Of a stretch of 64,000 bases of DNA, positions 13,485 through 47,063 are shown piece after piece. Below the pieces are notes generated by a model, which saw only the letters and a program-made list of their open reading frames with translations, was not told the DNA's origin and did no database searches. Position numbers and translations under genes: made by a program. The DNA lies in NCBI RefSeq assembly GCF_029024965.1, contig NZ_CP118982.1, positions 2,542,001 to 2,606,000 of the forward strand. Direction: 5' to 3'. Source of the DNA: Staphylococcus equorum (lineage in GTDB: Bacteria > Bacillota > Bacilli > Staphylococcales > Staphylococcaceae). Positions within the stretch are counted from its first letter, which is position 1. Each line of letters begins with the position of its first letter.

Positions 13485-13535
13485 GGTAACTGCCTCCCTT
13501 TTTATGATATTTTCTTATTTATATACGCTATATAA

Positions 13536-29736: not shown

Positions 29737-29989
29737 TATATTCATTACTTCTAAATAATAATTTCATCGGTACATTCACACCCTCACACTGAGTACATTT
29801 AATTTAAAAACATTAATTTTACTTTCAGTAGATAGAATTAACATTTCGTTAATAATTTTAATAAAACTAAAAAGAGTTATTTTTTTAATAAAAGTATAAT
29901 TTGTGATATATTTATAAAATAATCATCATATATATATTCATTTTACTTAATATTTTTATTTATTTTCAAAAACAAAGGGGATGGTTTTA
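29737..29989. other. AT-rich promoter region of the SDR/C-domain cassette
   Basis: No coding frame is supported. TATAAT-like segments around 29895-29925 (AAAGTATAATTTG, TTTATAAAAT) are candidate -10 boxes for the gene at 29990. This region is markedly AT-rich, marking the left edge of the secondary-metabolite locus. Confidence 0.45.
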
Positions 29990-30808
29990 ATGAAAGTTGC
30001 TATAGTCACAGGAGCAAGTAGTGGAATTGGTTTTGATACAGCTAAAATGTTAGCCAAAAAAGACTACCGTGTTTATGCTCTTGCAAGAAACACAAAGAAA
30101 ATGCAAGGTTTATTAGCATATAATGTCAAAATAATGAAACTAGACATAACAGATTATAATGCAATCAAAGAAGTAGTTAACCATATTTTAAATAAAGAAG
30201 GCCATATAAATATTTTAATAAATAATGCTGGCTATGGATCATATGGTGCTATTGAAGATGTATCAATTGAAGAAGCGAAAAGACAGTTCGAAGTAAATCT
30301 ATTTGGTCTATCTGAAATAACAAGAGCCGTTATACCTTCCATGCGTGAACAAAAAGCAGGAAAAATTGTAAATATATCGTCAATCGGTGGACGTATACCT
30401 AATTATCTAGGAACTTGGTATCATGCTTCTAAACATGCTTTAGAGGGATACAGCGAAAGCTTACGTTTAGAACTTTCCGAATTTGGTATAGACGTTATCG
30501 TTATTCGACCGGGTGGTATAAAAACAGAATGGTCTTCTATTACAGCTCAAAATCTTAAATCATCTGCTAAAGGAGGAATCTATGAAGAAAAAGCTTTAAC
30601 ACTGGCAAATTCAATGATTAAATTAAATTCACTTAATTTATTTTACCCTCCTTCCGCTGTAGCTAAAGTTATAACTAATTCAATAGAAAGACGCTTTGTA
30701 AAACCGCAATATATTGTCGGTTTTCTTGCTAAAACCTCTATTTTTTTACATGCATTACTACCAGTTAAGCTATATAATTTTATTATCAAAAAACCGGTAT
30801 CTAAATAA
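29990..30808 (+). CDS. Short-chain dehydrogenase/reductase in the NRPS locus
   Basis: A 272-residue classical SDR. The NAD(P) motif TGASSGIG is at about 8-15, followed by NNAG, the active-site serine in ISSIGG, and the YHASK pair (Tyr, Lys). The ATG at 29990 is preferred: AAAGGGG is 9 bases upstream, whereas the ATG at 29981 abuts it. The C-terminal hydrophobic stretch (FLAKTSIFLHALLPVKLYNF) suggests membrane association. It lies 22 bases before the stand-alone condensation protein gene, so both are likely co-transcribed. Candidate role: oxidation or reduction of the NRPS product, by context only. Confidence 0.88.
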   Translation: MKVAIVTGASSGIGFDTAKMLAKKDYRVYALARNTKKMQGLLAYNVKIMKLDITDYNAIKEVVNHILNKEGHINILINNAGYGSYGAIEDVSIEEAKRQFEVNLFGLSEITRAVIPSMREQKAGKIVNISSIGGRIPNYLGTWYHASKHALEGYSESLRLELSEFGIDVIVIRPGGIKTEWSSITAQNLKSSAKGGIYEEKALTLANSMIKLNSLNLFYPPSAVAKVITNSIERRFVKPQYIVGFLAKTSIFLHALLPVKLYNFIIKKPVSK

Positions 30809-30830: not shown

Positions 30831-32108
30831 ATGTCCACTGCAAATCTAACTTTGGCTCAAAATCATTATGCAATGTTGGAGTTATCACAACCTAATACAA
30901 GCATTTCTAATCTTTCTAATTTATTATATATCGAAAACACTTATTCTTATGATGCAATAAACAATGCATTAAATAAGCTTGTTGAAAATTTTGATGCATA
31001 TAGAATTCATATAATTAATGAATCAGGTGAACTAAAACAATCTTTACAACCTTTTAATTTCGAATACTTCCCATTAGTTGAATTTACAGACGAAGCTCAA
31101 TATAACGCTTGGATTGATCAACAAAAAAGCAAATGCTTATTTGATTTAAATAGCGATTTATACGACTTTACAATTGTAAAAAAACCCGATGGAAAACATT
31201 GCGTTTTCTTCACACATCATCATATTATTACTGATGCATGGAGCATAACGCATTCCGTTAACTATGTCGCAAAAACTCTGATTGGCCACAATATGGAACC
31301 CAATCCTTATTCTTATTTAGATATCACTAATGATGACAAAAAATACTTAAATTCTAACCGTTATGAAATCGATAAAAATTATTGGTTTAATAAAGTATTG
31401 AATTTTGAAATTACTGATTTTTTACCAAAGTTACAAAATGAAAATTATAAATCAGTAAGAAAATCTTATTCTCTTACTGAAGATGAATTTAAGTTCCTTC
31501 ATAAAATGTGCAGTGATTATTCTATTAGTATTAGTACAATGTTTATGTCTTTAATGCATTTATATGTTAGTAAATTATCGAATAAGAAGCAAAATTCAAT
31601 TGGTTTAATGGTACATAATAGAAGTAGTAACATCGAAAAAGAAACTTGTGGTCTTTTTACAAAAGCGCTACCATTAATTGTTGAAATAAACCCTGAGCAA
31701 ACTGTTGAAAGTTTTATCAACTTAGTTAAAAAAGAGAACTTCACTTTACTAAAACATAGAAAAATACCTACTACATTATTAATAGAACAAAATAAGGAAA
31801 AAGATGTAACGGCCTTAGCTGATTTTGCTATTTCATATCATAATATGCAATATGATAATGAAATTACAAAAGAAGGTTTTAAAGAGGAATGGTTATTAAA
31901 TGAAGCAAATCTTTACAACAAATTAAATATGAATATTAGTAATAGAAATAATGAGAATACATTGCATATCGATTATGACTTCAGCACATTCTATCTAAGC
32001 GAGACTTATATTGAACAAATGCATTATAGTTTAATGGATATTTTAGTTCAATTTCATAATAATCCGCACACATGCTTAAACGACATAGACGTTGTTCCTT
32101 TTAAATGA
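30831..32108 (+). CDS. Stand-alone NRPS condensation-domain protein
   Basis: A 425-residue condensation-family protein made of one C domain. The catalytic motif HHHIITDAWS is intact (second His as base, Asp). Sequence runs in parallel over its whole length with the N-terminal C domain of the convergent NRPS (HHVISDAWS; shared VHNRSSNIEKE-type/MHNRNKK block; TLLKHRKIP/NILKHRKYP; MNISNRNNENTL/VNISNRNRKNTL). It could acylate or transfer an aminoacyl chain, release the product, or act as an esterifying C domain. There is no adenylation or carrier domain, so it must act on a carrier supplied in trans. Confidence 0.88.
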   Translation: MSTANLTLAQNHYAMLELSQPNTSISNLSNLLYIENTYSYDAINNALNKLVENFDAYRIHIINESGELKQSLQPFNFEYFPLVEFTDEAQYNAWIDQQKSKCLFDLNSDLYDFTIVKKPDGKHCVFFTHHHIITDAWSITHSVNYVAKTLIGHNMEPNPYSYLDITNDDKKYLNSNRYEIDKNYWFNKVLNFEITDFLPKLQNENYKSVRKSYSLTEDEFKFLHKMCSDYSISISTMFMSLMHLYVSKLSNKKQNSIGLMVHNRSSNIEKETCGLFTKALPLIVEINPEQTVESFINLVKKENFTLLKHRKIPTTLLIEQNKEKDVTALADFAISYHNMQYDNEITKEGFKEEWLLNEANLYNKLNMNISNRNNENTLHIDYDFSTFYLSETYIEQMHYSLMDILVQFHNNPHTCLNDIDVVPFK

Positions 32109-32680: not shown

Positions 32681-35600
32681 TTAGAAATTATTTTTTGTAT
32701 GATTAATCATTATATTTAATGTATTTTCACTTGTTGGTTCCCACTGGAAATTCAATTTTTCTAGTATGAAATTAGTTTTATAATCCAAAATTTCAAAATG
32801 TGCTTTATTAAATAATGTATTGTCTAAGATACCTGTATGCAGTAGAAATGCATTGACTTCATCACTCATTACACCAAGATTTATACATTCCATTAAGTGA
32901 TCCAAAAAAGCATCCCAATAAACAGCTTCTATATAATGGTTGTTCTCATTATATACTGCCATTAATTTCTGGAGTGATAAGCGCTTGTTGTTATAAATGT
33001 GATGGATTTCATTGCTTAATTGATCATTCAATATTAATTTATTACATGCTTTTGCAGCTTGGTCCACATGAGTAAATTCTAAGTCATCTTCTTCGAGCCT
33101 TGGAAACTTTTGAAGCATCTTGAATGATTTTATAACACTATAAAAAGCATTGTTTTCTTCATTTTTTTGAAAAATTCCTGTTCTAGAGTCACATTGTAAG
33201 TTACCTAGTCTATAAATGTTCGTCTCAATGCCTTCTTCACGATAAGCAATAAGTAATTTTTCAGCTTCTATTTTACTATCAATATAAATATTATTTGGTT
33301 TTTGAGAAATATCCACGTCATATTCAGAAAAAGTACTACTATCTTTATCCTCTATACTGCCTGAAGCTATACTAATTGTAGACATATGGTGAATTTCTTT
33401 TTTATTTTTATCTTTTGCAAACGATATTAAGTTGTGGATTGATTTAACATTTGTGTTATAAGAAGACTCTTCTGTCGCAAAATGATTTACATTTGCTGCT
33501 GCATTTATAATAATATCTATATTATTTACTAAATAATCATAATTGCTATTAGAAAAACCTAAATATTTTGATTCAATATCGCCCTCTACAAAATGAATAC
33601 GACTCAAATCCTCTGTTTTTAATTGAGAATTAAAGTAATAGAACCAATTGTTATTTAATTTGTTCTCACCACTTATTTTTTCACTATTTCTCACTAAGAC
33701 ATAAATAATTAAATCTTTACGTTCTAGTAGATCTTTTAATATATGGATACCTAAATAACCTGTAGCTCCTGTCAATAATATTTGTTTATCTGATTTAACT
33801 ACATCTTTATCAATAAATTTATAATTTTCATTACTTTTCACTTTGTAATCATTGATTTCAGATATAAAGTCACTATTAAAATGATGTTCATTCTTAACAT
33901 TCGGAATTTTTAATGCGTCTAATTTTGTCATTACATTCATTTCTTCACGTTCAACCAACGCTTTACTTATAGATGCAATGGTCTGTAACTCAAAGATGTC
34001 TTTAATTGATATATTATATGATTTAGATATTAAAGATGTTAACTTTATAGCCTTAAGTGAATCTCCTCCCATTTCGAAGAAATTATCATGAATACTAATT
34101 TGATCCACATGTAATACTGCTTCAAACGTTTTTGCTACAGCACTTTCCATATCATTTGTCGGCGCTACATATACTTTACTTTCAACTTTAATTTCTGGTA
34201 AAGCTTTTTTATTCAGCTTTCCATTTGAAGTTACTGGCAGTTCATCAAGTTGCGTCATATATGCAGGTATCATATAATCTGGTAACTTTTGACCTAAAGA
34301 TGTTTTTAAAGATCCAAAATCAAGTGAGTCATCTGATACTAAATACGCACAAATAGATAGTTCATTATCAACCATCGGTCTCGCTACAATCGCTACATCA
34401 TTGATATGAGTATGTTGTCTTAAAATACTTTCTATTTCACCCAATTCAATACGATAACCGCGTATTTTAACTTGTTCATCTATACGGCCTATATAAATAA
34501 TATTGCCGTCGCCATTCCATTTCGCTAAATCTCCCGTACGATATAATTTACCTTTCCCAAATGGATTATCAATAAATTTCTCTTGTGTTAATTCAGGACG
34601 ATTTAAATAACCTGCTGTGACACCGACACCTGCAATACAAAGTTCACCAGGCACTCCGATACCCATTATATTATTATCTTCATTTAAAATATAAGCTTGA
34701 ATATTGGAGATTGGTTTGCCGATTGGAATCGAATCATATGTTTTATGATTTTCACAGTCAAAACTTGTTACGTCAACGGTTGTTTCAGTAGGGCCATATA
34801 GGTTGAGTAAGGCAGTATTGTTTTTATTTCCAATAAAATGATTAAAGTCATTAACTTGTTCCGGTTTTAATGCTTCTCCACTAGCTAAAACATATTTTAG
34901 TTTCGAAATGGCTTGTGCGTTGTTTGTAGATTTAATAAAATTAACAAACATATTTAACATCGACGGCACGAAGTGAACCATCGCTACTGAGTAACCTTCT
35001 AATAATTCAGTTATTTTTTCAGGGTTCCCTTCTTCTCCAGAAGGTAGTAGAACAATTTGACTACCAAGCATTGCCCAGCCAAAGATTTCCCATACTGAAA
35101 CATCGAATGTATAAGGCGTTTTAAATAATATTGTATCTTCACCATCGACATTATATTTATTTATCACCCAGTTTAAACGGTTCATAACGCCTTCACTATG
35201 CGCCATAACGCCCTTCGGTTTTCCAGTTGTACCTGAAGTATAAATAACATACATTAAGTTAGACTCATCTGAAATTTGTTTTAAATTAGAAGTTGGGAAT
35301 GCTTCTAACCTTGTTGTTTCAGTTAAATCAATGACTTTATTTCCATAATTTATAGCTTCATCTAATTCTCGATCTGTTAATAAAACCTTCGGTTGACTAT
35401 CTTCTAAAATATAATTAATGCGGTCAATTGGGTACTTAGGATCGATTGGAACATAAGCACCACCTGCTTTTAAAATCCCATAAATACCAATAATCGTTTC
35501 AAGTTGTCGATCCATAATTAAGGCAATTAAACTGTTAGCTCCAACACCTTCAGCTCTTAATTGATAGGCAAGCTGATTCGCACGTGCGTTTAACTCATCA

Positions 35601-38600
35601 TAATTTAAACTTTCACCTTCATACGTAATGGCTGTTTGATAAGGCGTTGCTTTCACTTGTTTTTCAAAACGCTCTACAAATGTTTCCTTATTATTTAAAC
35701 TAGCCTCTGTATCATTAAATTTATCAAAAATAACTGCTTTTTCTTCTTTAGTTATCATCTCAATCTCAGTCATTTTTTGAGAAGGATCCTTTGTAATTTC
35801 AACTAAAATTTCCATAAAGTGTTTCAACATACGCTCTATCGTCGCTTTACTAAATAATTCACTTGCATATTCTAATGAAACTTTATACCCTTCATTTTCT
35901 TCAATTGTCATACTCAAATCAAATTTCGCATTTGTATGTGATGCTTCTTTAATTTCAACAGACCAATCATTAATTTCAAATGCTTGATTATCATTATTTT
36001 GTAAGGCGAATAATACATCGAATAAAGGATTACGACTTAAATCGCTTCTTTCTACTACTTCTTCTACTAAATCTTCGAGTGGATACTCTTGATTATCAAA
36101 AGCTTTTATAGAAAGGTTTTTCACTTCTGACAATAGTTGCTCGAACGATTTATCCCGTTCTGGATAGCTTCTCATTGCCAACGTGTTAACAAACATACCT
36201 AATATATCTTCGGTATCTTTATGTGTTCTTCCGGAGACAGGGCTACCAATGACTATATCTTCTTGCCTACTATATTTATGAAGTAATACCATAAATGATG
36301 CCGATAAAATCATGTAATCTGTACTACCTGTTGTTTGCGCAAGCTGATGAATCGCTTTCTTAGTTTCATTAGGCATGTGCATTGACATTGTTCTACCTTT
36401 AAAACTTTGCTGTTTAAGTCTAGGGTAATCATAAGGTAAATCTAAAACAGGTGCTTCCTTTTCAAATTGTGATAACCAAAATGAACGTTGTTGACTTAAA
36501 TCACGTTCACGCATCCATTCACTATAGTCTCTATAACGTATTTTCAATTCTTCTAATGCTTGGTTTTGATACAATCTCGAAAAATCTTTGATAATAATAT
36601 TAATAGATAGACCATCTGAAATGATATGGTGCATATCAAATAATAAGAGATATTTTTGTTCGTCACTTTTCACTACTTTTACTCTTAATAGCGGCGCCTG
36701 TGCTAAGTCAAATGGACTTACAAATTCACTTAACAGAGTATCATCGTTAACTTCCATTTCCTCTTCATAATCTATATTTATAGATACACTATCCTCAATA
36801 ATTTGAACAGGTTCTCCTTCAAACACTTCAAAACGTGTCCTTAAAATTTCATGATGGTTAATTAAACTCTGAAAAGCAAAACGTACACGTTCAATATCTA
36901 CTTCACCTTTAATTTCAAATATTCCAGGCATATTGTAAGCCGTTTGTCCCTCTGTCATTTCATTTAAAACATATAATCTCTTCTGTTGTGAAGACACGTA
37001 ATAAGCGGATTTATCTTCAGCTTGTGGAATATCTTGAATATTCGTATGGTCTTCACTATTTTTTATAAACTCAGCTAATTGGGCAACCGTTGGTTTCTCA
37101 AAGATAATTTTTAATGGTAATCTGATTCCAATATAATGTTCAATTTCATTGATTACACTAATGGCTTTAAGTGAATGTCCTCCCATTTCGAAGAAATTAT
37201 CATGAATACTAACTTGATCCACATGTAATACTGCTTCAAACGTTTCTGCTACAGCGCTTTCCATATCATTTGTCGGCGCTACATATACTTTACTTTCAAC
37301 TTTAATTTCTGGTAAAGCTTTTTTATTCAGCTTTCCATTTGAAGTTACTGGCAGTTCATCAAGTTGCGTCATATATGCAGGTATCATATAATCTGGTAAC
37401 TTTTGACCTAAAGATGTTTTTAAAGATCCAAAATCAAGTGAGTCATCTGATACTAAATACGCACAAATAGATAGTTCATTATCAACCATCGGTCTCGCTA
37501 CAATCGCTACATCATTGATATGAGTATGTTGTCTTAAAATACTTTCTATTTCACCCAATTCAATACGATAACCGCGTATTTTAACTTGTTCATCTATACG
37601 GCCTATATAAATAATATTGCCGTCGCCATTCCATTTCGCTAAATCTCCCGTACGATATAATTTACCTTTCCCAAATGGATTATCAATAAATTTCTCTTGT
37701 GTTAATTCAGGACGATTTAAATAACCTGCTGTGACACCGACACCTGCAATACAAAGTTCACCAGGCACTCCGATACCCATTATATTATTATCTTCATTTA
37801 AAATATAAGCTTGAATATTGGAGATTGGTTTGCCGATTGGAATCGAATCATATGTTTTATGATTTTCACAGTCAAAACTTGTTACGTCAACGGTTGTTTC
37901 AGTAGGGCCATATAGGTTGAGTAAGGCAGTATTGTTTTTATTTCCAATAAAATGATTAAAGTCATTAACTTGTTCCGGTTTTAATGCTTCTCCACTAGCT
38001 AAAACATATTTTAGTTTCGAAATGGCTTGTGCGTTGTTTGTAGATTTAATAAAATTAACAAACATATTTAACATCGACGGCACGAAGTGAACCATCGCTA
38101 CTGAGTAACCTTCTAATAATTCAGTTATTTTTTCAGGGTTCCCTTCTTCTCCAGAAGGTAGTAGAACAATTTGACTACCAAGCATTGCCCAGCCAAAGAT
38201 TTCCCATACTGAAACATCGAATGTATAAGGCGTTTTAAATAATATTGTATCTTCACCATCGACATTATATTTATTTATCACCCAGTTTAAACGGTTCATA
38301 ACGCCTTCACTATGCGCCATAACGCCCTTCGGTTTTCCAGTTGTACCTGAAGTATAAATAACATACATTAAGTTAGACTCATCTGAAATTTGTTTTAAAT
38401 TAGAAGTTGGGAATGCTTCTAACCTTGTTGTTTCAGTTAAATCAATGACTTTATTTCCATAATTTATAGCTTCATCTAATTCTCGATCTGTTAATAAAAC
38501 CTTCGGTTGACTATCTTCTAAAATATAATTAATGCGGTCAATTGGGTACTTAGGATCGATTGGAACATAAGCACCACCTGCTTTTAAAATCCCATAAATA

Positions 38601-40129
38601 CCAATAATCGTTTCAAGTTGTCGATCCATAATTAAGGCAATTAAACTGTTAGCTCCAACACCTTCAGCTCTTAATTGATAGGCAAGCTGATTCGCACGTG
38701 CGTTTAACTCATCATAATTTAAACTTTCACCTTCATACGTAATGGCTGTTTGATAAGGCGTTGCTTTCACTTGTTTTTCAAAACGCTCTACAAATGTTTC
38801 CTTATTATTTAAACTAGCCTCTGTATCATTAAATTCATTTAAAATTGTATATTTCTCATTTTCATCCAATATCTCTATATTTTTGATTTTTGTATTTGGA
38901 TTTTCTATTGCCTTATCCATGATTTTTAAAATAATATTATGTAAATCTATAATTTCTTTCTCATTCACAATAGCTGTTTGATAATCATAATCTACAGTTA
39001 AAGTGTTCTTTCGATTTCTATTACTAATATTCACAGTTAATGGCGCGTTATTTGAGCCATTTTCTATCCATTCATCTGAATAAACATTTTTTAAAACTTC
39101 ATGACTGTATTGAGTATTTTGGTAAGAGATCAGACAGTCTAATAGTCCTTTTTGCCCACCACTATCTTCTACTATATTTCTATAAGGGTATTTTCTATGC
39201 TTTAATATATTGAAGGTTTCATATTTTGTTTGAGTTAATAAATCAGATATAGAATAATCACTAGAGACATCAATTATAATTGGCAACGCCCTTGAAAATA
39301 CTCCTGTAACTCCTTTTTCTGCTTTTTTATTTCTATTATGCATTATCGACCCAACTGAAATTTTTTTCGATGCCGTTTTTTTATATTTTATAATAATCAT
39401 CATAGCAGAGAATAAATTATTAATACTTATATTATTTTTTTCACAAAATTCGTGTATTCTATGGGTTTCAATATCAGACAAACTATAACTTTTTCTATTA
39501 CTATGACCATTATTATCACTATTTTTCTCGAATAATTCATTGTCTTCTAAATTTTCAGTCTTTTTCAACCAGAAAGATTTATCTTTTTCAAATCTTTTAG
39601 TATTTTTATATTCTATTTCTTCTTCGATGTAATCAAAATATGTAGATTCTATTTCCTTGCTATTCGGTCCATCATTTAAATATTTACTTATTGTATTTGC
39701 AGCTACTGTTATACTCCATGCATCTGAAATGACATGATGTTCCATCAAAAATATTCCGATTTTTCCAGTAGGTAATTTCACTATTTTAAAGTCAAATAAG
39801 TCACTATCTGTTGAAAATAAATTTTTGCGTGCTTGTTCATTAATCCATTTGGTATACCCTACTTGATTATTCTTAAAGTCAACAAAATCAAATTTTTTGT
39901 CTTTATGTTCACTAATATATTGTTTATATTCACTCTTCACTTTTTTCAATTTAATTCTATAAGTTTCATGTGTTTTTATTAGATTATTTAATGCTTTTTC
40001 TATTTCTTCTATTTTAATACCAGGTTTAATATAAATAATAACTGATATATTATTAATACTATTATTTTCATAATATTCTTGTAGTTGAATAATCTCAGTT
40101 TGTGCATCTGATAAATTAATTGTTTCCAT
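32681..40129 (-). CDS. Dimodular NRPS C-A-T-C-A-T-R, both A domains with serine-type code
   Basis: A 2482-residue nonribosomal peptide synthetase. Domains in order: C1 about 5-425 (EHHVISDAWS, His130); A1 about 432-945; T1 (GGHSLKAI, Ser986); C2 about 1045-1465 (MHHIISDGLS); A2 about 1470-1985; T2 (GGDSLKAI, Ser2024); terminal thioester reductase about 2110-2482 (TGATGYLG, YxxxK near 2285). The A-domain pocket residues read by alignment to PheA are D-V-W-H-L-S-L-V-D-K, one change from the serine code DVWHLSLIDK, and they are the same in both modules. AusA of S. aureus is A-T-C-A-T-R with Val and Tyr/Phe; this protein has an extra N-terminal C domain and different pockets. The predicted product is an N-acylated or free Ser-Ser aldehyde, which could cyclise to a pyrazinone. 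The upstream Sfp-type gene would activate the carriers. Confidence 0.93.
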   Translation of the reverse strand: METINLSDAQTEIIQLQEYYENNSINNISVIIYIKPGIKIEEIEKALNNLIKTHETYRIKLKKVKSEYKQYISEHKDKKFDFVDFKNNQVGYTKWINEQARKNLFSTDSDLFDFKIVKLPTGKIGIFLMEHHVISDAWSITVAANTISKYLNDGPNSKEIESTYFDYIEEEIEYKNTKRFEKDKSFWLKKTENLEDNELFEKNSDNNGHSNRKSYSLSDIETHRIHEFCEKNNISINNLFSAMMIIIKYKKTASKKISVGSIMHNRNKKAEKGVTGVFSRALPIIIDVSSDYSISDLLTQTKYETFNILKHRKYPYRNIVEDSGGQKGLLDCLISYQNTQYSHEVLKNVYSDEWIENGSNNAPLTVNISNRNRKNTLTVDYDYQTAIVNEKEIIDLHNIILKIMDKAIENPNTKIKNIEILDENEKYTILNEFNDTEASLNNKETFVERFEKQVKATPYQTAITYEGESLNYDELNARANQLAYQLRAEGVGANSLIALIMDRQLETIIGIYGILKAGGAYVPIDPKYPIDRINYILEDSQPKVLLTDRELDEAINYGNKVIDLTETTRLEAFPTSNLKQISDESNLMYVIYTSGTTGKPKGVMAHSEGVMNRLNWVINKYNVDGEDTILFKTPYTFDVSVWEIFGWAMLGSQIVLLPSGEEGNPEKITELLEGYSVAMVHFVPSMLNMFVNFIKSTNNAQAISKLKYVLASGEALKPEQVNDFNHFIGNKNNTALLNLYGPTETTVDVTSFDCENHKTYDSIPIGKPISNIQAYILNEDNNIMGIGVPGELCIAGVGVTAGYLNRPELTQEKFIDNPFGKGKLYRTGDLAKWNGDGNIIYIGRIDEQVKIRGYRIELGEIESILRQHTHINDVAIVARPMVDNELSICAYLVSDDSLDFGSLKTSLGQKLPDYMIPAYMTQLDELPVTSNGKLNKKALPEIKVESKVYVAPTNDMESAVAETFEAVLHVDQVSIHDNFFEMGGHSLKAISVINEIEHYIGIRLPLKIIFEKPTVAQLAEFIKNSEDHTNIQDIPQAEDKSAYYVSSQQKRLYVLNEMTEGQTAYNMPGIFEIKGEVDIERVRFAFQSLINHHEILRTRFEVFEGEPVQIIEDSVSINIDYEEEMEVNDDTLLSEFVSPFDLAQAPLLRVKVVKSDEQKYLLLFDMHHIISDGLSINIIIKDFSRLYQNQALEELKIRYRDYSEWMRERDLSQQRSFWLSQFEKEAPVLDLPYDYPRLKQQSFKGRTMSMHMPNETKKAIHQLAQTTGSTDYMILSASFMVLLHKYSRQEDIVIGSPVSGRTHKDTEDILGMFVNTLAMRSYPERDKSFEQLLSEVKNLSIKAFDNQEYPLEDLVEEVVERSDLSRNPLFDVLFALQNNDNQAFEINDWSVEIKEASHTNAKFDLSMTIEENEGYKVSLEYASELFSKATIERMLKHFMEILVEITKDPSQKMTEIEMITKEEKAVIFDKFNDTEASLNNKETFVERFEKQVKATPYQTAITYEGESLNYDELNARANQLAYQLRAEGVGANSLIALIMDRQLETIIGIYGILKAGGAYVPIDPKYPIDRINYILEDSQPKVLLTDRELDEAINYGNKVIDLTETTRLEAFPTSNLKQISDESNLMYVIYTSGTTGKPKGVMAHSEGVMNRLNWVINKYNVDGEDTILFKTPYTFDVSVWEIFGWAMLGSQIVLLPSGEEGNPEKITELLEGYSVAMVHFVPSMLNMFVNFIKSTNNAQAISKLKYVLASGEALKPEQVNDFNHFIGNKNNTALLNLYGPTETTVDVTSFDCENHKTYDSIPIGKPISNIQAYILNEDNNIMGIGVPGELCIAGVGVTAGYLNRPELTQEKFIDNPFGKGKLYRTGDLAKWNGDGNIIYIGRIDEQVKIRGYRIELGEIESILRQHTHINDVAIVARPMVDNELSICAYLVSDDSLDFGSLKTSLGQKLPDYMIPAYMTQLDELPVTSNGKLNKKALPEIKVESKVYVAPTNDMESAVAKTFEAVLHVDQISIHDNFFEMGGDSLKAIKLTSLISKSYNISIKDIFELQTIASISKALVEREEMNVMTKLDALKIPNVKNEHHFNSDFISEINDYKVKSNENYKFIDKDVVKSDKQILLTGATGYLGIHILKDLLERKDLIIYVLVRNSEKISGENKLNNNWFYYFNSQLKTEDLSRIHFVEGDIESKYLGFSNSNYDYLVNNIDIIINAAANVNHFATEESSYNTNVKSIHNLISFAKDKNKKEIHHMSTISIASGSIEDKDSSTFSEYDVDISQKPNNIYIDSKIEAEKLLIAYREEGIETNIYRLGNLQCDSRTGIFQKNEENNAFYSVIKSFKMLQKFPRLEEDDLEFTHVDQAAKACNKLILNDQLSNEIHHIYNNKRLSLQKLMAVYNENNHYIEAVYWDAFLDHLMECINLGVMSDEVNAFLLHTGILDNTLFNKAHFEILDYKTNFILEKLNFQWEPTSENTLNIMINHTKNNF
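34143..35721 (-). repeat. A2-T2 copy of a 1579-bp internal direct repeat
   Basis: From the first codons of the adenylation domain to the linker before the carrier core, this segment matches 37257-38835 with an offset of 3114 bases (1038 codons). I saw no mismatch where I compared them, including synonymous sites, while the flanks diverge sharply at 35722/38836. Four base differences appear in the next 100 bases toward the carrier (34042-34142), so the homology tapers there. Confidence 0.9.
37257..38835 (-). repeat. A1-T1 copy of the 1579-bp internal direct repeat
   Basis: Partner of 34143-35721. Both copies are in the same orientation within one gene, so recombination between them could delete or duplicate a 3114-base module in frame. 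Near-total identity implies recent duplication or ongoing gene conversion. Confidence 0.9.
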
Positions 40130-41610: not shown

Positions 41611-42315
41611 TTATATTGTTAAGAATTCTGAGCGTTGTTTCTCACGCTTATCAATTACAATTTGTGACGTTTTAACATCTAATTCTAATAATTTTTCGAT
41701 ATTTTGAGTTACGAATTCATCGCTTCCTACTATATAGAATAAGGCGTTTTTATCCATTGCAATATTTTCTAATTCTTCATAATATGATGCTCTACTATCC
41801 ACAAATTGTGATGTGAATTTTTTATCTGGTACAGACTTAAATATATCTGTAAATAAGAATTCTCTAGACGAATCAACATTTATAGAATGTATTTTATTAA
41901 CATCCTCAGCGTTCTCTAAATATTTAAGTACTATTGGTCTATATGTTGCCAAACCAACGCCAGAAGATAGTAAATACACATTTTTACTTTCTCTTTTTAG
42001 TGGAATATTTGAATGTGTTTTAAAAATTGCTACTTCCTGTCCAACTTCTAAATTATTTAAAATATTTTTAAACTCAGAACATTGTTTTCTTATTCTTGTA
42101 GTAATTCCAATTATATTCTCATTAGGAACGGTAGAAATCGACATATGGCGCACCAAGCTTTTATTTGGTTTTTCGCCTTCATTAAAGCCTTTTAAGCCCA
42201 TGTGTGTATGAGATCCTTCTTCCCAAGTAAATCCCTCTGGGCAATCAAGTAAATACGTTTTAATTTCAGACGTTTCATTAATAATCTTATTTATTTTAGT
42301 CCAATATATCTGCAT
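41611..42315 (-). CDS. FAD-dependent ferredoxin-reductase-like oxidoreductase, Fur-regulated
   Basis: A 234-residue protein of the ferredoxin-NADP reductase fold. The FAD-binding beta-barrel segment has RHMSIST (RxxS), and the pyridine nucleotide domain has LSSGVGLATYRP and YIVGSDEF. Proteins of this build reduce ferric siderophores or supply electrons to small carriers. A Fur box lies 56 bases upstream, so the gene should be induced by iron starvation. It is monocistronic, flanked by a terminator. It is not IruO, which is a larger thioredoxin-reductase-like enzyme. Substrate unknown. Confidence 0.78.
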   Translation of the reverse strand: MQIYWTKINKIINETSEIKTYLLDCPEGFTWEEGSHTHMGLKGFNEGEKPNKSLVRHMSISTVPNENIIGITTRIRKQCSEFKNILNNLEVGQEVAIFKTHSNIPLKRESKNVYLLSSGVGLATYRPIVLKYLENAEDVNKIHSINVDSSREFLFTDIFKSVPDKKFTSQFVDSRASYYEELENIAMDKNALFYIVGSDEFVTQNIEKLLELDVKTSQIVIDKREKQRSEFLTI

Positions 42316-42680: not shown

Positions 42681-44723
42681 ATGGAACATAATGATCAACA
42701 CCATAATCATGATGCTCATAGTCATCACGAACATGAGCATCATGACAGCCATAATGGTCATGCGCATCATCACGGCAATTTTAAAAATAAATTTTTTATT
42801 TCTTTAATTTTTGCAATACCTATTATTATTCTATCACCAATGATGGGTGTTACATTGCCATTCCAATTTTCATTTCCAGGTTCTGATTGGATTGTTTTAA
42901 TCCTTGCTACAATTTTATTCTTTTACGGTGGCAAACCATTTTTAACAGGTGCTAAGGATGAGATTTCAACTAAAAAACCTGGCATGATGACGCTAGTTGC
43001 TTTAGGCATTTCAGTGGCTTATTTTTATAGTTTATATGCTTTTTACATGAATAATTTCACCGATTCCTCAACGCATACAATGGATTTTTTCTGGGAATTA
43101 GCGACTTTAATTTTAATTATGTTGTTAGGTCATTGGATTGAAATGAATGCTGTAGGTAAAGCAGGCAATGCATTGAAAAAAATGGCAGAACTGTTACCGA
43201 ATATTGCAATTAAAGTGACAGAAGATGACCAACGTCATGAAGTTAAAATTGATAACATCAATATTGATGATATTGTTGAAGTTAAAGCTGGGGAAAGCAT
43301 ACCTACAGATGGCACAATCACTCAGGGCGAGACATCAATTGATGAATCATTAGTTACTGGTGAATCAAAAAAAGTTGCCAAAAAGTATAATGATGACGTT
43401 ATTGGCGGCTCTATCAATGGTTCAGGCACAATACAAGTTAAAGTTACAGCCACTGGTGAAAATGGCTACCTATCTCAAGTTATGGGATTAGTTAATCAGG
43501 CGCAAAATGATAAGTCAAAAGCCGAGCTTCTCTCAGATCAAGTAGCAGGTTATTTATTTTATTTTGCAGTGAGCGTAGGGTTAATTTCATTTATTGTATG
43601 GATGCTTATTCAAAATGATATCGACTTCGCACTTGAAAGACTTGTTACTGTATTAGTTATTGCTTGTCCACACGCATTAGGACTGGCCATTCCATTAGTT
43701 ACAGCACGCTCCACTTCTATAGGTGCACATAATGGCTTAATCATAAAAAACAGAGAATCTGTAGAAATTGCCCAACATATTGATTACGTTATGATGGATA
43801 AAACAGGAACACTTACTGAAGGTGATTTTACAGTAAATCACTATGAAAGTTTTACTGATGAATTCCATGAGGAGATAATATTGAGTCTATTTGCTTCATT
43901 AGAAAGTAGTTCTAATCATCCACTTGCTACTGGAATCGTTGATTTTACTAAAGGTAAAAATATCTCGTATGCTAATCCTAAAGAAGTTAATAATTTACCA
44001 GGCGTAGGATTAGAAGGCACAGTTGATAATAAAATACTCAAAATAACGAATGCTTCTTATCTCGATAATAACAATCTTAAGTATAATAAAGAACAATTCA
44101 CTCATCTTGCTCAACAAGGTAATTCTATTAGTTATTTAATTCATAACCAACAAGTTATTGGCATGATTGCACAAGGCGATAAAATCAAAGAAAGCTCACA
44201 ACAAATGATTTCAGACTTATTATCAAGAAACATTACACCAGTGATGCTTACTGGTGATAATAAAGAAGTTGCAGAAACAGTTGCTAAACAATTAGGAATT
44301 AACGATGTCCATGCACAATTAATGCCCGAAGATAAAGAAAGTATTATTAAAGCATATCAAAGCAGAGGTAGTAAAATTATGATGGTTGGCGATGGAATCA
44401 ATGATGCTCCCAGTCTTATAAGAGCAGATATTGGAATGGCGATAGGCGCTGGAACAGATGTAGCAGTCGAATCAGGCGATGTCATACTTGTTAAAAGCAA
44501 TCCCTCCGATATTATCAATTTCTTTACACTTTCTAAAAACACTATGAGAAAAACAATTCAAAATTTATGGTGGGGTGCTGGATATAACGTTGTAGCCGTT
44601 CCTCTTGCAGCCGGTATATTAGCTTTTATAGGTTTAATATTATCTCCTGCTGTAGGTGCAATACTCATGTCCTTAAGTACAGTTATCGTAGCAATTAACG
44701 CTTTTACTTTAAAATTAAAATAA
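42681..44723 (+). CDS. copB: Copper-exporting P1B-type ATPase CopB
   Basis: A 680-residue P-type ATPase. A His-rich N-terminus (about 1-32, repeated HH and HEHEHH) replaces the CxxC metal domains of CopA. The membrane ion motif is CPHALGLA (near residue 329), typical of CopB rather than the CPC of CopA; the phosphorylation site is DKTGTLTEG (Asp373), and [10 protein letters not shown] closes the hinge. It exports copper from the cytoplasm. It is followed 18 bases later by copL, the same pair found on mobile copper islands (such as ACME) of staphylococci. GGGGG precedes the ATG. Confidence 0.96.
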
Positions 44724-44741
44724 ATGATAGGGGTTAAAATT

Positions 44742-45287
44742 ATGATTAAAAAATTAAGCTTTATTATATTAGCATCAGGCCTCGTATTATCAGCTTGCTC
44801 AAATGGCAGTGGAGAGGAAAAAGATTCTAAAGATCAAAAACACGAGGAACATATGGAACATAAAAGTGAAAATAAAGTTCCAGAGGATATGGAGAGCACA
44901 GAAGAAAGTAAATTTAAAAAAGATGATGAAGTTACTATTACAGCAGGACACATGCCAGGTATGAAAAATGCGGAAGCTACTGTAAAAGGTGCTTATGAGA
45001 CTTATGCTTATGTCGTAAGCTATACACCCACAAATGGGGATGAAAAGGTAAGTAATCATAAATGGGTTGTTAATGAAGAAGTTGCCGATGCCCCTGAAAA
45101 TGGCTTTAAGAAAGGTGATACAGTTAAATTAGAAGCTGACCATATGCCAGGTATGAAGGGGGCAGAAGCAAAAATAGATGATGTAAATAAGACAATTGTT
45201 TATGTAGTTGATTATAGATCAACTGAAAATGACAAAATGGTTAAAAATCATAAATGGATGACAAGTAACGAACTAAAATCGAGATAA
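44742..45287 (+). CDS. copL: Copper-binding surface lipoprotein CopL (YdhK/DUF1541 repeats)
   Basis: A 181-residue lipoprotein. The ATG at 44742 has AGGGG 8 bases upstream; an in-frame ATG at 44724 overlaps the copB end. The signal peptide ends in the lipobox LVLSAC. A His/Glu-rich linker (HEEHMEHK) and two DUF1541 repeats follow, each with HMPGM (about residues 68 and 128). In S. aureus USA300 CopL protects against external copper. Cotranscribed with copB. Confidence 0.93.
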   Translation: MIKKLSFIILASGLVLSACSNGSGEEKDSKDQKHEEHMEHKSENKVPEDMESTEESKFKKDDEVTITAGHMPGMKNAEATVKGAYETYAYVVSYTPTNGDEKVSNHKWVVNEEVADAPENGFKKGDTVKLEADHMPGMKGAEAKIDDVNKTIVYVVDYRSTENDKMVKNHKWMTSNELKSR

Positions 45288-45485: not shown

Positions 45486-47063
45486 TTACGATTGTTTCTT
45501 TTTCTCAGCGTCTCTTAATTCGATACGTCTAATTTTACCTGAGTTGGTCTTAGGTAAGTCTTCGACAAACTCGATGGCTCTTGGATATTTATATGGCGCA
45601 ACGTCATGTTTGACGTAGTTTTGTAATTCTTTGATTGTGTCTTCATTACCAGTTACATCATCTTGTAAAATAATAAATGCTTTAACGATGTTCCCTCTAA
45701 TTTCATGTGGGCTTGCAACAACAGCACATTCTTTTACGTAAGGATGTTTCGTAAGTGAATCTTCAACCTCGAATGGTCCTATTGTATAGCCAGAACTAAT
45801 AATGATGTCATCTTTACGACCTTCAAACCAGAAATAACCATCTTCGTCTATTTTAGCTAAATCACCCGTCATAAAATAGTCACCATTTTGTGGTTCTGCT
45901 GTGCGTTCTGGGTCTTTATAATAACCTTTGAATAATGCAGGTAAGTCTAACGGCACTGCGATATTACCTACTTCGCCTACTTTAGAAAGTTCACCATCAT
46001 CATTAATAACTGTTACATGACTACCAGGGATTGCTTTACCCATTGAACCGGGACGGCTCTCTGTATCTTTTAAAAATCCAATCAACAGTGTACTTTCTGT
46101 TTGGCCGTATCCATCTCTTACCGTAAGATCAAAGTTTTCTTGGAATTTTTCAACGACTTCTCTATTTAATGGTTCGCCTGCAGACACTGCACTATGCAAA
46201 TGTTCTAAATTATAATCTGTTAAATTAGACAGTTTTGCCATCAAGCGATACTCAGTCGGTGTACAACAAAGCGCATTAATTTTATTATCTTGTAATAACT
46301 GTAAATATTTTTCAGCATCAAATCTTCCATTATATACAAAGGCAGTTGCACCTGATCCCATAATTGATAACAATGGGCTCCATACCCATTTTTGCCACCC
46401 TGGTGCAGCAGTTGCCCAAACAATATCGTCTTCTTTAATACTCAACCAATGTTTTGGCGCCATCTGCATATGTGCATAGCCCCAACCGTGTGAATGGACA
46501 ACAGCTTTAGGATTACCAGTTGTACCAGACGTATAAGATAATAAAGCAATATCTTCACGAGAAGTTTCAACAATCTCTAATTGATCCGTTGAATTTGCTT
46601 TTTCATCTTCAACTGACATCCATCCATCTTCTTGACCGCCAACAATAAATTTAGTTAAAGTGTCGTATTCTTTGACTGCTTTAAACTCATCAAGCGCATC
46701 TGAAATAACTACAATTCCTTTTACTTCACCATGTGTAATTCTGTATTGTAAATCTTTCGTACGTAACATTTCAGAACTAGGGATAATAATGATACCTAAT
46801 TTTAAGGCAGCAAGATAAACCTCATATGTCTCAATACAACGTGGCATCATGACGAGCACTTTGTCACCTTTTTTAAAACCATATTTTAAAAACATATTAC
46901 CAACTTTATTCGCATTTTTGATAAGGTTGGTATATGTAATTTCTCTATTTTCTCCTGTTTCATTTTCAAATATTACAGCTTTTTTAGATTGATCTACTGT
47001 AAATTTTTCGATTTCGCTCACTATGTTATAAGTTTCTGGAGCGATTAAATCTTGTTTATTCAT
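45486..47063 (-). CDS. Acyl-CoA synthetase (AMP-forming; MbcS/medium-chain type)
   Basis: A 525-residue ANL-superfamily ligase. ATP loop YTSGTTGNPKAVVHSH, adenylation motif DGYGQTES, hinge GRKDDIIISSGYTIGP and the C-terminal catalytic lysine in PKTNSGKIRR are all present. These enzymes make acyl-CoA from short- and branched-chain carboxylic acids; S. aureus MbcS, for 2-methylbutyrate and isobutyrate, is the probable orthologue. Monocistronic. The AGGAGAG site lies 6-12 bases before the ATG. The acyl substrate is inferred from family resemblance. Confidence 0.9.
   Translation of the reverse strand: MNKQDLIAPETYNIVSEIEKFTVDQSKKAVIFENETGENREITYTNLIKNANKVGNMFLKYGFKKGDKVLVMMPRCIETYEVYLAALKLGIIIIPSSEMLRTKDLQYRITHGEVKGIVVISDALDEFKAVKEYDTLTKFIVGGQEDGWMSVEDEKANSTDQLEIVETSREDIALLSYTSGTTGNPKAVVHSHGWGYAHMQMAPKHWLSIKEDDIVWATAAPGWQKWVWSPLLSIMGSGATAFVYNGRFDAEKYLQLLQDNKINALCCTPTEYRLMAKLSNLTDYNLEHLHSAVSAGEPLNREVVEKFQENFDLTVRDGYGQTESTLLIGFLKDTESRPGSMGKAIPGSHVTVINDDGELSKVGEVGNIAVPLDLPALFKGYYKDPERTAEPQNGDYFMTGDLAKIDEDGYFWFEGRKDDIIISSGYTIGPFEVEDSLTKHPYVKECAVVASPHEIRGNIVKAFIILQDDVTGNEDTIKELQNYVKHDVAPYKYPRAIEFVEDLPKTNSGKIRRIELRDAEKKKQS

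Follow-up and report, generated by a model that had tools for sequence, protein, structure and literature searches.

A reductase-ended two-module nonribosomal peptide synthetase of Staphylococcus equorum with an exact internal repeat and a predicted N-acyl-Ser-Ser aldehyde product

Background

Several described nonribosomal peptide synthetases (NRPSs) may serve as a reference for the locus presented here. The N-acyl dipeptide aldehyde synthetases of gut bacteria consist of two modules, begin with an acylating condensation (C) domain and end in a reductase (R) domain. AusA, the staphylococcal aureusimine synthetase, is built of two adenylation-thiolation (A-T) modules with a terminal R domain, with a phosphopantetheinyl transferase (PPTase) gene next door, and its dipeptide aldehydes become pyrazinones. 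EntF, the serine module of enterobactin synthesis, has a thioesterase end and acts iteratively. R-ended synthetases of N-acyl dipeptide aldehydes are known from gut bacteria (PMC8518294, PMC12327764, in their available parts), and OaaC, a stand-alone enzyme that works on free amines, has a fatty-acid amide C domain which joins acyl-ACP to amines (PMC13142362, available part). For staphylococci, NRPS regions without a product are reported in the available parts of studies on S. shinii (PMC12388102) and S. xylosus (PMC12350326).

In our study, we analysed 64,000 nucleotides of S. equorum contig NZ_CP118982.1 (assembly GCF_029024965.1, positions 2,542,001 to 2,606,000), referred to as the window, and compared the NRPS encoded there with the systems above and with 84 Staphylococcus genomes. 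What we would call new is an all-serine R-ended series of synthetases, homogenised twin units within one gene and possible one-module alleles. The initial annotation of this DNA had mentioned neither the exact repeat, the one-module entries and the family of one, two, three and five modules, nor the stand-alone starter-type C protein (trans-C) and the short-chain dehydrogenase-type oxidoreductase (SDR) described below.

Gene architecture and A-domain pockets

The NRPS gene is an intact minus-strand open reading frame, and its domain order, proposed earlier from the letters alone, was borne out by Pfam and by motifs (Table 1). Pfam matched Condensation, AMP-binding and PP-binding twice each and NAD_binding_4 once. 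Motifs were intact in every NRPS domain inspected, including NGKLNK, which is present twice with the A10 lysine kept in both A domains, and the NADP-binding GATG and the YIDSK (YxxxK) motifs of the R domain.

Table 1 Features of the NRPS locus, with positions counted from the first nucleotide of the window
Feature	Position	Strand	Evidence
Two-module NRPS, 2482 aa, C-A-T-C-A-T-R	32681..40129	-	ORF (exact extent), Pfam, motifs
N-terminal C domain, aa 1-430, starter type, HHVISDA	38840..40129	-	Pfam, motif, structure-database match, three trees
Copy 1 of exact 1,579-bp repeat (A1 and start of T1)	37257..38835	-	Self-comparison
T1 core, aa 959-1022, GGHS	37064..37255	-	Pfam, motif
Internal C domain, aa 1042-1467, HHIISDG	35729..37006	-	Pfam; clusters with internal C domains in trees
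Copy 2 of exact 1,579-bp repeat (A2 and start of T2; T2 motif GGDS)	34143..35721	-	Self-comparison
Terminal thioester reductase region, aa 2076-2482; NAD_binding_4 aa 2119-2361; GATGYLG, YIDSK	32684..33904	-	Pfam, motifs
trans-C, stand-alone starter-type C protein, 425 aa, HHIITDA; putative partner	30831..32108	+	Pfam, motif, trees, dN/dS
SDR oxidoreductase, 275 aa, 22 bp upstream of trans-C; putative partner	29981..30808	+	Pfam, orthologue loci, dN/dS
4'-Phosphopantetheinyl transferase, 225 aa	40328..41005	-	Pfam; 103 bits vs AusB model (cut-off 225)
Reductase-like protein, 234 aa, with weak similarity to ferredoxin-NADP reductases; cluster membership uncertain	41611..42315	-	Model search, locus comparison, dN/dS
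Site at which S. equorum TMW 2.2347 (L005) has its three-module NRPS, its PPTase and its thioesterase gene; empty in the window between aligned flanks	13502..13535	.	Flank alignment

In its domain order, its starter-group N-terminal C and its intact R motifs the protein resembles the gut synthetases of ruminopeptin and N-octanoyl-Met-Phe-H, from which it differs by a serine code in both modules, by the exact A-T repeat and by its staphylococcal host. Among the best 120 of 167 matches found with the N-terminal C domain there were R-ended proteins, distantly related and 2451-2494 aa long, that agree in architecture and Pfam content, including an N-terminal C, and have 25-30% identity over that domain, which does not imply that they are the gut enzymes themselves.

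Pocket codes were read by script, without a trained specificity predictor. Both A domains gave DVWHLSLVD at nine positions, followed by the A10 lysine. E. coli K-12 EntF, taken as a control through the same script, gave DVWHFSLVD, so the claim of a pocket one change away from the serine code held: eight of nine positions are equal, Leu stands for Phe at the fifth, and the lysine is present. The A domains of EntF and the window share 35% identity and, unlike EntF, the window protein ends in R. Serine loading by both A domains is predicted from this code, and it is the firmest step of our reading, ahead of acylation, which in turn is firmer than the choice of aldehyde over alcohol.

The protein had also been described as unlike AusA, and we agree, although both are staphylococcal, have two A-T modules and a terminal R, and are encoded beside a PPTase gene. 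Orthology with AusA was rejected, because the score was 1709 bits against an NCBIfam AusA cut-off of 2500, the pockets are different and an extra C domain precedes the first module, whereas an AusA-type protein (L059) has one C domain at about aa 1016. Instead of DVWH, AusA-type proteins carry DAFWLGGTF and D-A-x-S-x-G-A-V-I; in our control, the first A domain read DAFWLGGTF in 11 of the 13 AusA-type loci of the genus, and DVWH in none of the 13.

The N-terminal C domain and the predicted product

In three trees the N-terminal C stood apart from the internal C domains of the same proteins. The tree of 101 rows placed it in a 38-row clade (support 100) which takes in 11/11 Staphylococcus starter-position and stand-alone C domains, 26/27 N-terminal C domains of database proteins (P0094 is the exception) and, from an NRPS of Paenibacillus polymyxa, the first C, and which leaves out the Vibrio N-terminal C of L101. 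In the tree of 52 rows, the fengycin-type first C of Bacillus amyloliquefaciens joined the starter group (18-row clade, 95/91); EntF's C domain, which has a very long branch, was also placed on the starter side, although weakly (83/54). The B. amyloliquefaciens locus is unannotated at its NRPS and was named from its neighbours and from glutamate- and tyrosine-type codes, a combination linked to fengycin. N-terminal position alone proves no starter C, since 40 of the 54 rows labelled N-terminal in a tree of 126 rows fell outside the Staphylococcus-Paenibacillus clade.

The best solved-structure relative of the N-terminal C is 12KH, the structure of OaaC (PMC13142362, available part), although in the window protein the domain is fused to a serine module and OaaC is not. 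The N-terminal C has Ala directly after the motif Asp, where HHxxxDG usually has Gly. This Gly position is called conserved, leaving room for the donor, in the available part of PMC7804268, and Ala occupies it in 36% of fatty-acid amide C domains according to section 9 of PMC13142362. The acyl gate residue of RzmA is R148 (PMC7804268, available part); counted along the motif, its place is taken by Ile140 in the window protein, and our guess is that such a gate might suit short to medium acyl chains.

Two roles had been suggested for this domain, N-acylation and loading from a partner, and a Pfam search of the own genome favoured the first. Three C domains were found in all, together with four PF00550 matches above the Pfam cut-off, namely T1 and T2 of this protein and a pair of short ORFs (79 and 124 aa), which we infer to be AcpP and DltC. 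This set offers no NRPS partner that might load the first C, and N-acylation is favoured because there is no other NRPS carrier in the genome; an acylated first Ser is likelier than a free amine.

Putting these points together, we think it fairly probable that this two-module R-ended NRPS loads serine twice, is likely acylating through its first C, and releases an N-acyl-Ser-Ser aldehyde. The starter C would transfer an acyl group from a donor, presumably CoA or ACP, to Ser on T1, the internal C would then join this Ser to Ser on T2, and NADPH-dependent release by R would give the N-acyl-Ser-Ser aldehyde, presumably as such and not as the alcohol. The intact GATG and YIDSK of the terminal R support the reductive release that had been proposed.

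A pyrazinone had been offered as the other product of this enzyme. Once acylated, the amine can no longer form a ring with the aldehyde, which makes direct formation of a pyrazinone unlikely and weakens that part of the proposal. A pyrazinone would be formed if the N-terminal C were inactive or dispensable, as the free Ser-Ser aldehyde would close and oxidise to a bis-hydroxymethyl pyrazinone like the AusA products. AusA relatives end in R as well, and the dipeptide aldehydes of gut bacteria were obtained in the form of pyrazinone by-products (PMC12327764, available part), but AusA-type proteins have no N-terminal C, while that of the window keeps an intact HHxxxD and clusters with starter C domains, and we regard this route as improbable.

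The literature searched, mostly outside subscription journals, describes no Ser-Ser staphylococcal product, in line with the earlier remark that none was known. If the N-acyl aldehyde is the true product, a class of N-acyl oligoserine aldehydes would join the few staphylococcal nonribosomal products, and the compound could inhibit proteases or act in lipid-like signalling. The host species is food-associated.

Linked genes

Orthologues of trans-C (62-88% identity) were found in 5 of the 84 genomes, the own one included, and all five loci also hold an R-ended NRPS and the SDR (77-94% identity), in a gene order that differs between one-module and two-module loci. This co-occurrence in 5/5 loci, together with dN/dS values of 0.26-0.33 for trans-C and 0.08-0.16 for SDR, argues for a task shared with the NRPS: SDR could reduce the aldehyde, and trans-C could add a second acyl group.

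A second reduction, by R or by the linked SDR, would turn the end product into the alcohol N-acyl-Ser-serinol, in which case N-acyl serinols would come from the one-module form. The presence of SDR beside trans-C and a C-A-T-R-type NRPS in four other loci fits such a pathway, and N-acyl serinols are bacterial GPR119 agonists that act on human receptors (PMC10666787, available part). However, SDRs are common, with some match in 84/84 genomes, and this putative partner does not adjoin the NRPS in the three- and five-module loci; we consider the alcohol rather unlikely.

Still less likely, in our opinion, is a pathway in which trans-C takes part and enlarges the product beyond an N-acyl dipeptide aldehyde, for example by acylating a serine hydroxyl or, in the manner of OaaC, by transferring the acyl product to a free amine. 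Its orthologues adjoin such an NRPS in 4/4 other loci, the dN/dS values are those given above, and its HHIITDA agrees with the (D/H)HxxxD[S/A] definition for fatty-acid amide C domains in section 9 of PMC13142362, among which the HHxxxDA form is common. Against this, the best solved match of trans-C is surfactin synthetase (58 bits, versus 28 bits for 12KH), two of three non-window orthologues read differ at the motif (HHAITDA, HHTITDV), and the nearest neighbour in trees is the N-terminal C of the C-A-T-R protein P0055, so trans-C may be a split-off remnant. No carrier ORF adjoins trans-C. An AlphaFold2 model of it, made from five sequences, had a mean pLDDT of 53.2 and a pTM of 0.40.

The reductase-like protein has no Pfam match, is 95% identical in S. 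equorum BC9 and has a dN/dS of 0.08. An acyl-CoA synthetase of the MbcS family is encoded at 45486-47063, and its 78% relative in G034 lies at a locus without such an NRPS. We also noticed a P-type ATPase and DUF1541 gene pair at 42681-45287; related pairs occur near NRPS genes in L008 and L132, on other sides. Other Staphylococcus genomes have more stand-alone starter-type C genes, in L087 (10257-11537), L088 (8644-9909), L089 (9555-10838), L127 (6771-8060) and L138 (9353-10633), some of which occupy sites that hold a C-A-T-C NRPS in relatives.

The exact repeat

The two A-T units of the gene are identical over 1,579 bp. In three- and five-module relatives, module pairs had about 70-79% base identity where blastn aligned them, and the longest exact run was 14-39 bp, rising to 50 bp in L008, where the gene is broken. 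Within the core (aa 433-957) the two protein copies differ at no position in the window, at 4 in the database protein P0005 and at 11 in P0047, a 2482-aa relative named S. equorum whose core is about 10% different from that of the window. Among the 57 core positions that vary between window and P0047, 46 have the same new residue in both copies, 2 are unlike and 9 changed in one copy. Free divergence since before the split would not give 46 of 57 changes alike, so the copies are homogenised; the A-T units are kept alike in each lineage by conversion or by repeated duplication. Such homogenisation would keep both positions serine.

At the DNA level no plasmid match to the NRPS region was found. 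A chimeric origin of the gene was considered and is not clear, as domain affinities are mixed and lack a sharp switch: the N-terminal C is nearest to the one-module C-A-T-R protein of L076 (65%; seven compared besides BC9), the R domain to S. arlettae (71%), and the A domain showed no sharp switch of affinity in 60-residue windows.

One-module database entries

We used the N-terminal C as a query against 5.8 billion proteins. Among the best 120 of the 167 matches, two entries are 2482 aa long, represent 149 and 36 members and match this domain at 100% and 83% identity, respectively, and at least 42 entries of 1395-1456 aa, 30 of them of 1444 aa, match it at 99-100%. The latter length equals 2482 minus the repeat spacing of 1038 aa. 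Compared with window residues 1-432 plus 1471-2482, the 42 short entries show 0 to 17 differences, five with a small gap, and P0013 is identical to the predicted product of a one-unit deletion. Four of the one-module entries (P0034, P0036, P0043, P0045) bear the name S. equorum.

Recombination between the copies of the exact repeat could remove a C-A-T unit without loss of frame, leaving a C-A-T-R enzyme for one serine. Product length could then be a population-level switch, in which some strains make N-acyl-Ser-serinal and others N-acyl-serinal, within a two-, three- and five-module all-serine R-ended series making N-acyl oligoserine aldehydes. We give this reading nearly an even chance and hold it tentatively, because entries are not strains; some pairs, such as P0016/P0017 and P0021/P0022, have their differences in common and seem to represent a single gene with alternative starts.

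There is a substantial, if less than even, chance that the one-module entries are collapsed short-read assemblies and that all strains really have two modules. The repeat exceeds the length of short reads, and in S. equorum BC9 two contigs end exactly at it, each with 21 bp of copy 1; the second copy is lacking from the assembly, and one A domain is missing at the contig break. But BC9 broke rather than collapsed, whereas the 42 one-module entries read through in frame, two of them on chromosome-size contigs of 2,809,077 and 2,721,344 bases. Moreover, three T-domain positions that distinguish T1 from T2 divide these entries into four classes (20, 17, 3 and 2), as expected of several junctions, or of conversion. 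The exact repeat and the one-module entries make a change of NRPS module number open to testing inside a single species, where so far it had to be deduced from comparisons of distant ones.

The same search brought two distant C-A-T-R proteins, P0090 and P0095 (1401 and 1404 aa), with the serine-type code DVWHFSLVD, which are candidates for makers of a one-serine aldehyde or serinol. The C-A-T-R protein P0051 of S. gallinarum, 1444 aa, has a different code, DAWFFGLVE.

Related synthetases in Staphylococcus

R-ended multi-module relatives occur in 13 of the 84 genomes, with two modules in the genome of the window and in BC9, three in G005 (S. arlettae), G028 (S. equorum TMW 2.2347) and G067, and five in eight genomes. 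DVWH was kept in 52/52 A domains read, window included, which exceeds chance, followed by L/I/F/P, S/T, L/F, I/V and D/E; serine-type codes were found in 49/49 A domains read from the 11 genomes with three or five modules. The five-module genes and the three-module genes of G028 and G067 all lie at the same conserved site, together with genes for a PPTase and a protein of the thioesterase family, the thioesterase domain having been checked in two of these loci. No thioesterase above the Pfam cut-off was found in the window's genome; BC9 has one adjoining its NRPS.

Such genes may also underlie an entry in the table of PMC12388102, where S. shinii SC-M1C has unassigned NRPS regions of 56,796, 44,376 and 44,328 bases. 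These equal, as a matter of arithmetic only, 39,999 plus genes of 16,797, 4,377 and 4,329 bases, which are the sizes of the five-module, C-A-T-C and one-module genes in G083; the two-module gene is absent among those regions of the table.

G028, G059 and G083 each have a 1442-aa C-A-T-R protein with another code, DPWVLGVID. The same code is found in C-A-T-C NRPSs of 1458-1480 aa in six genomes (L125, L126 and L128-L131, in G083, G077, G081, G082, G052 and G059), which have a C-terminal condensation domain and no thioesterase or reductase. A second NRPS of S. equorum TMW 2.2347 lies at 9971-17528 of L008, where a C-A-T-C-A-T ORF, its first code DPWVLGVID and its second serine-type, is followed by a further C domain in the next ORF.
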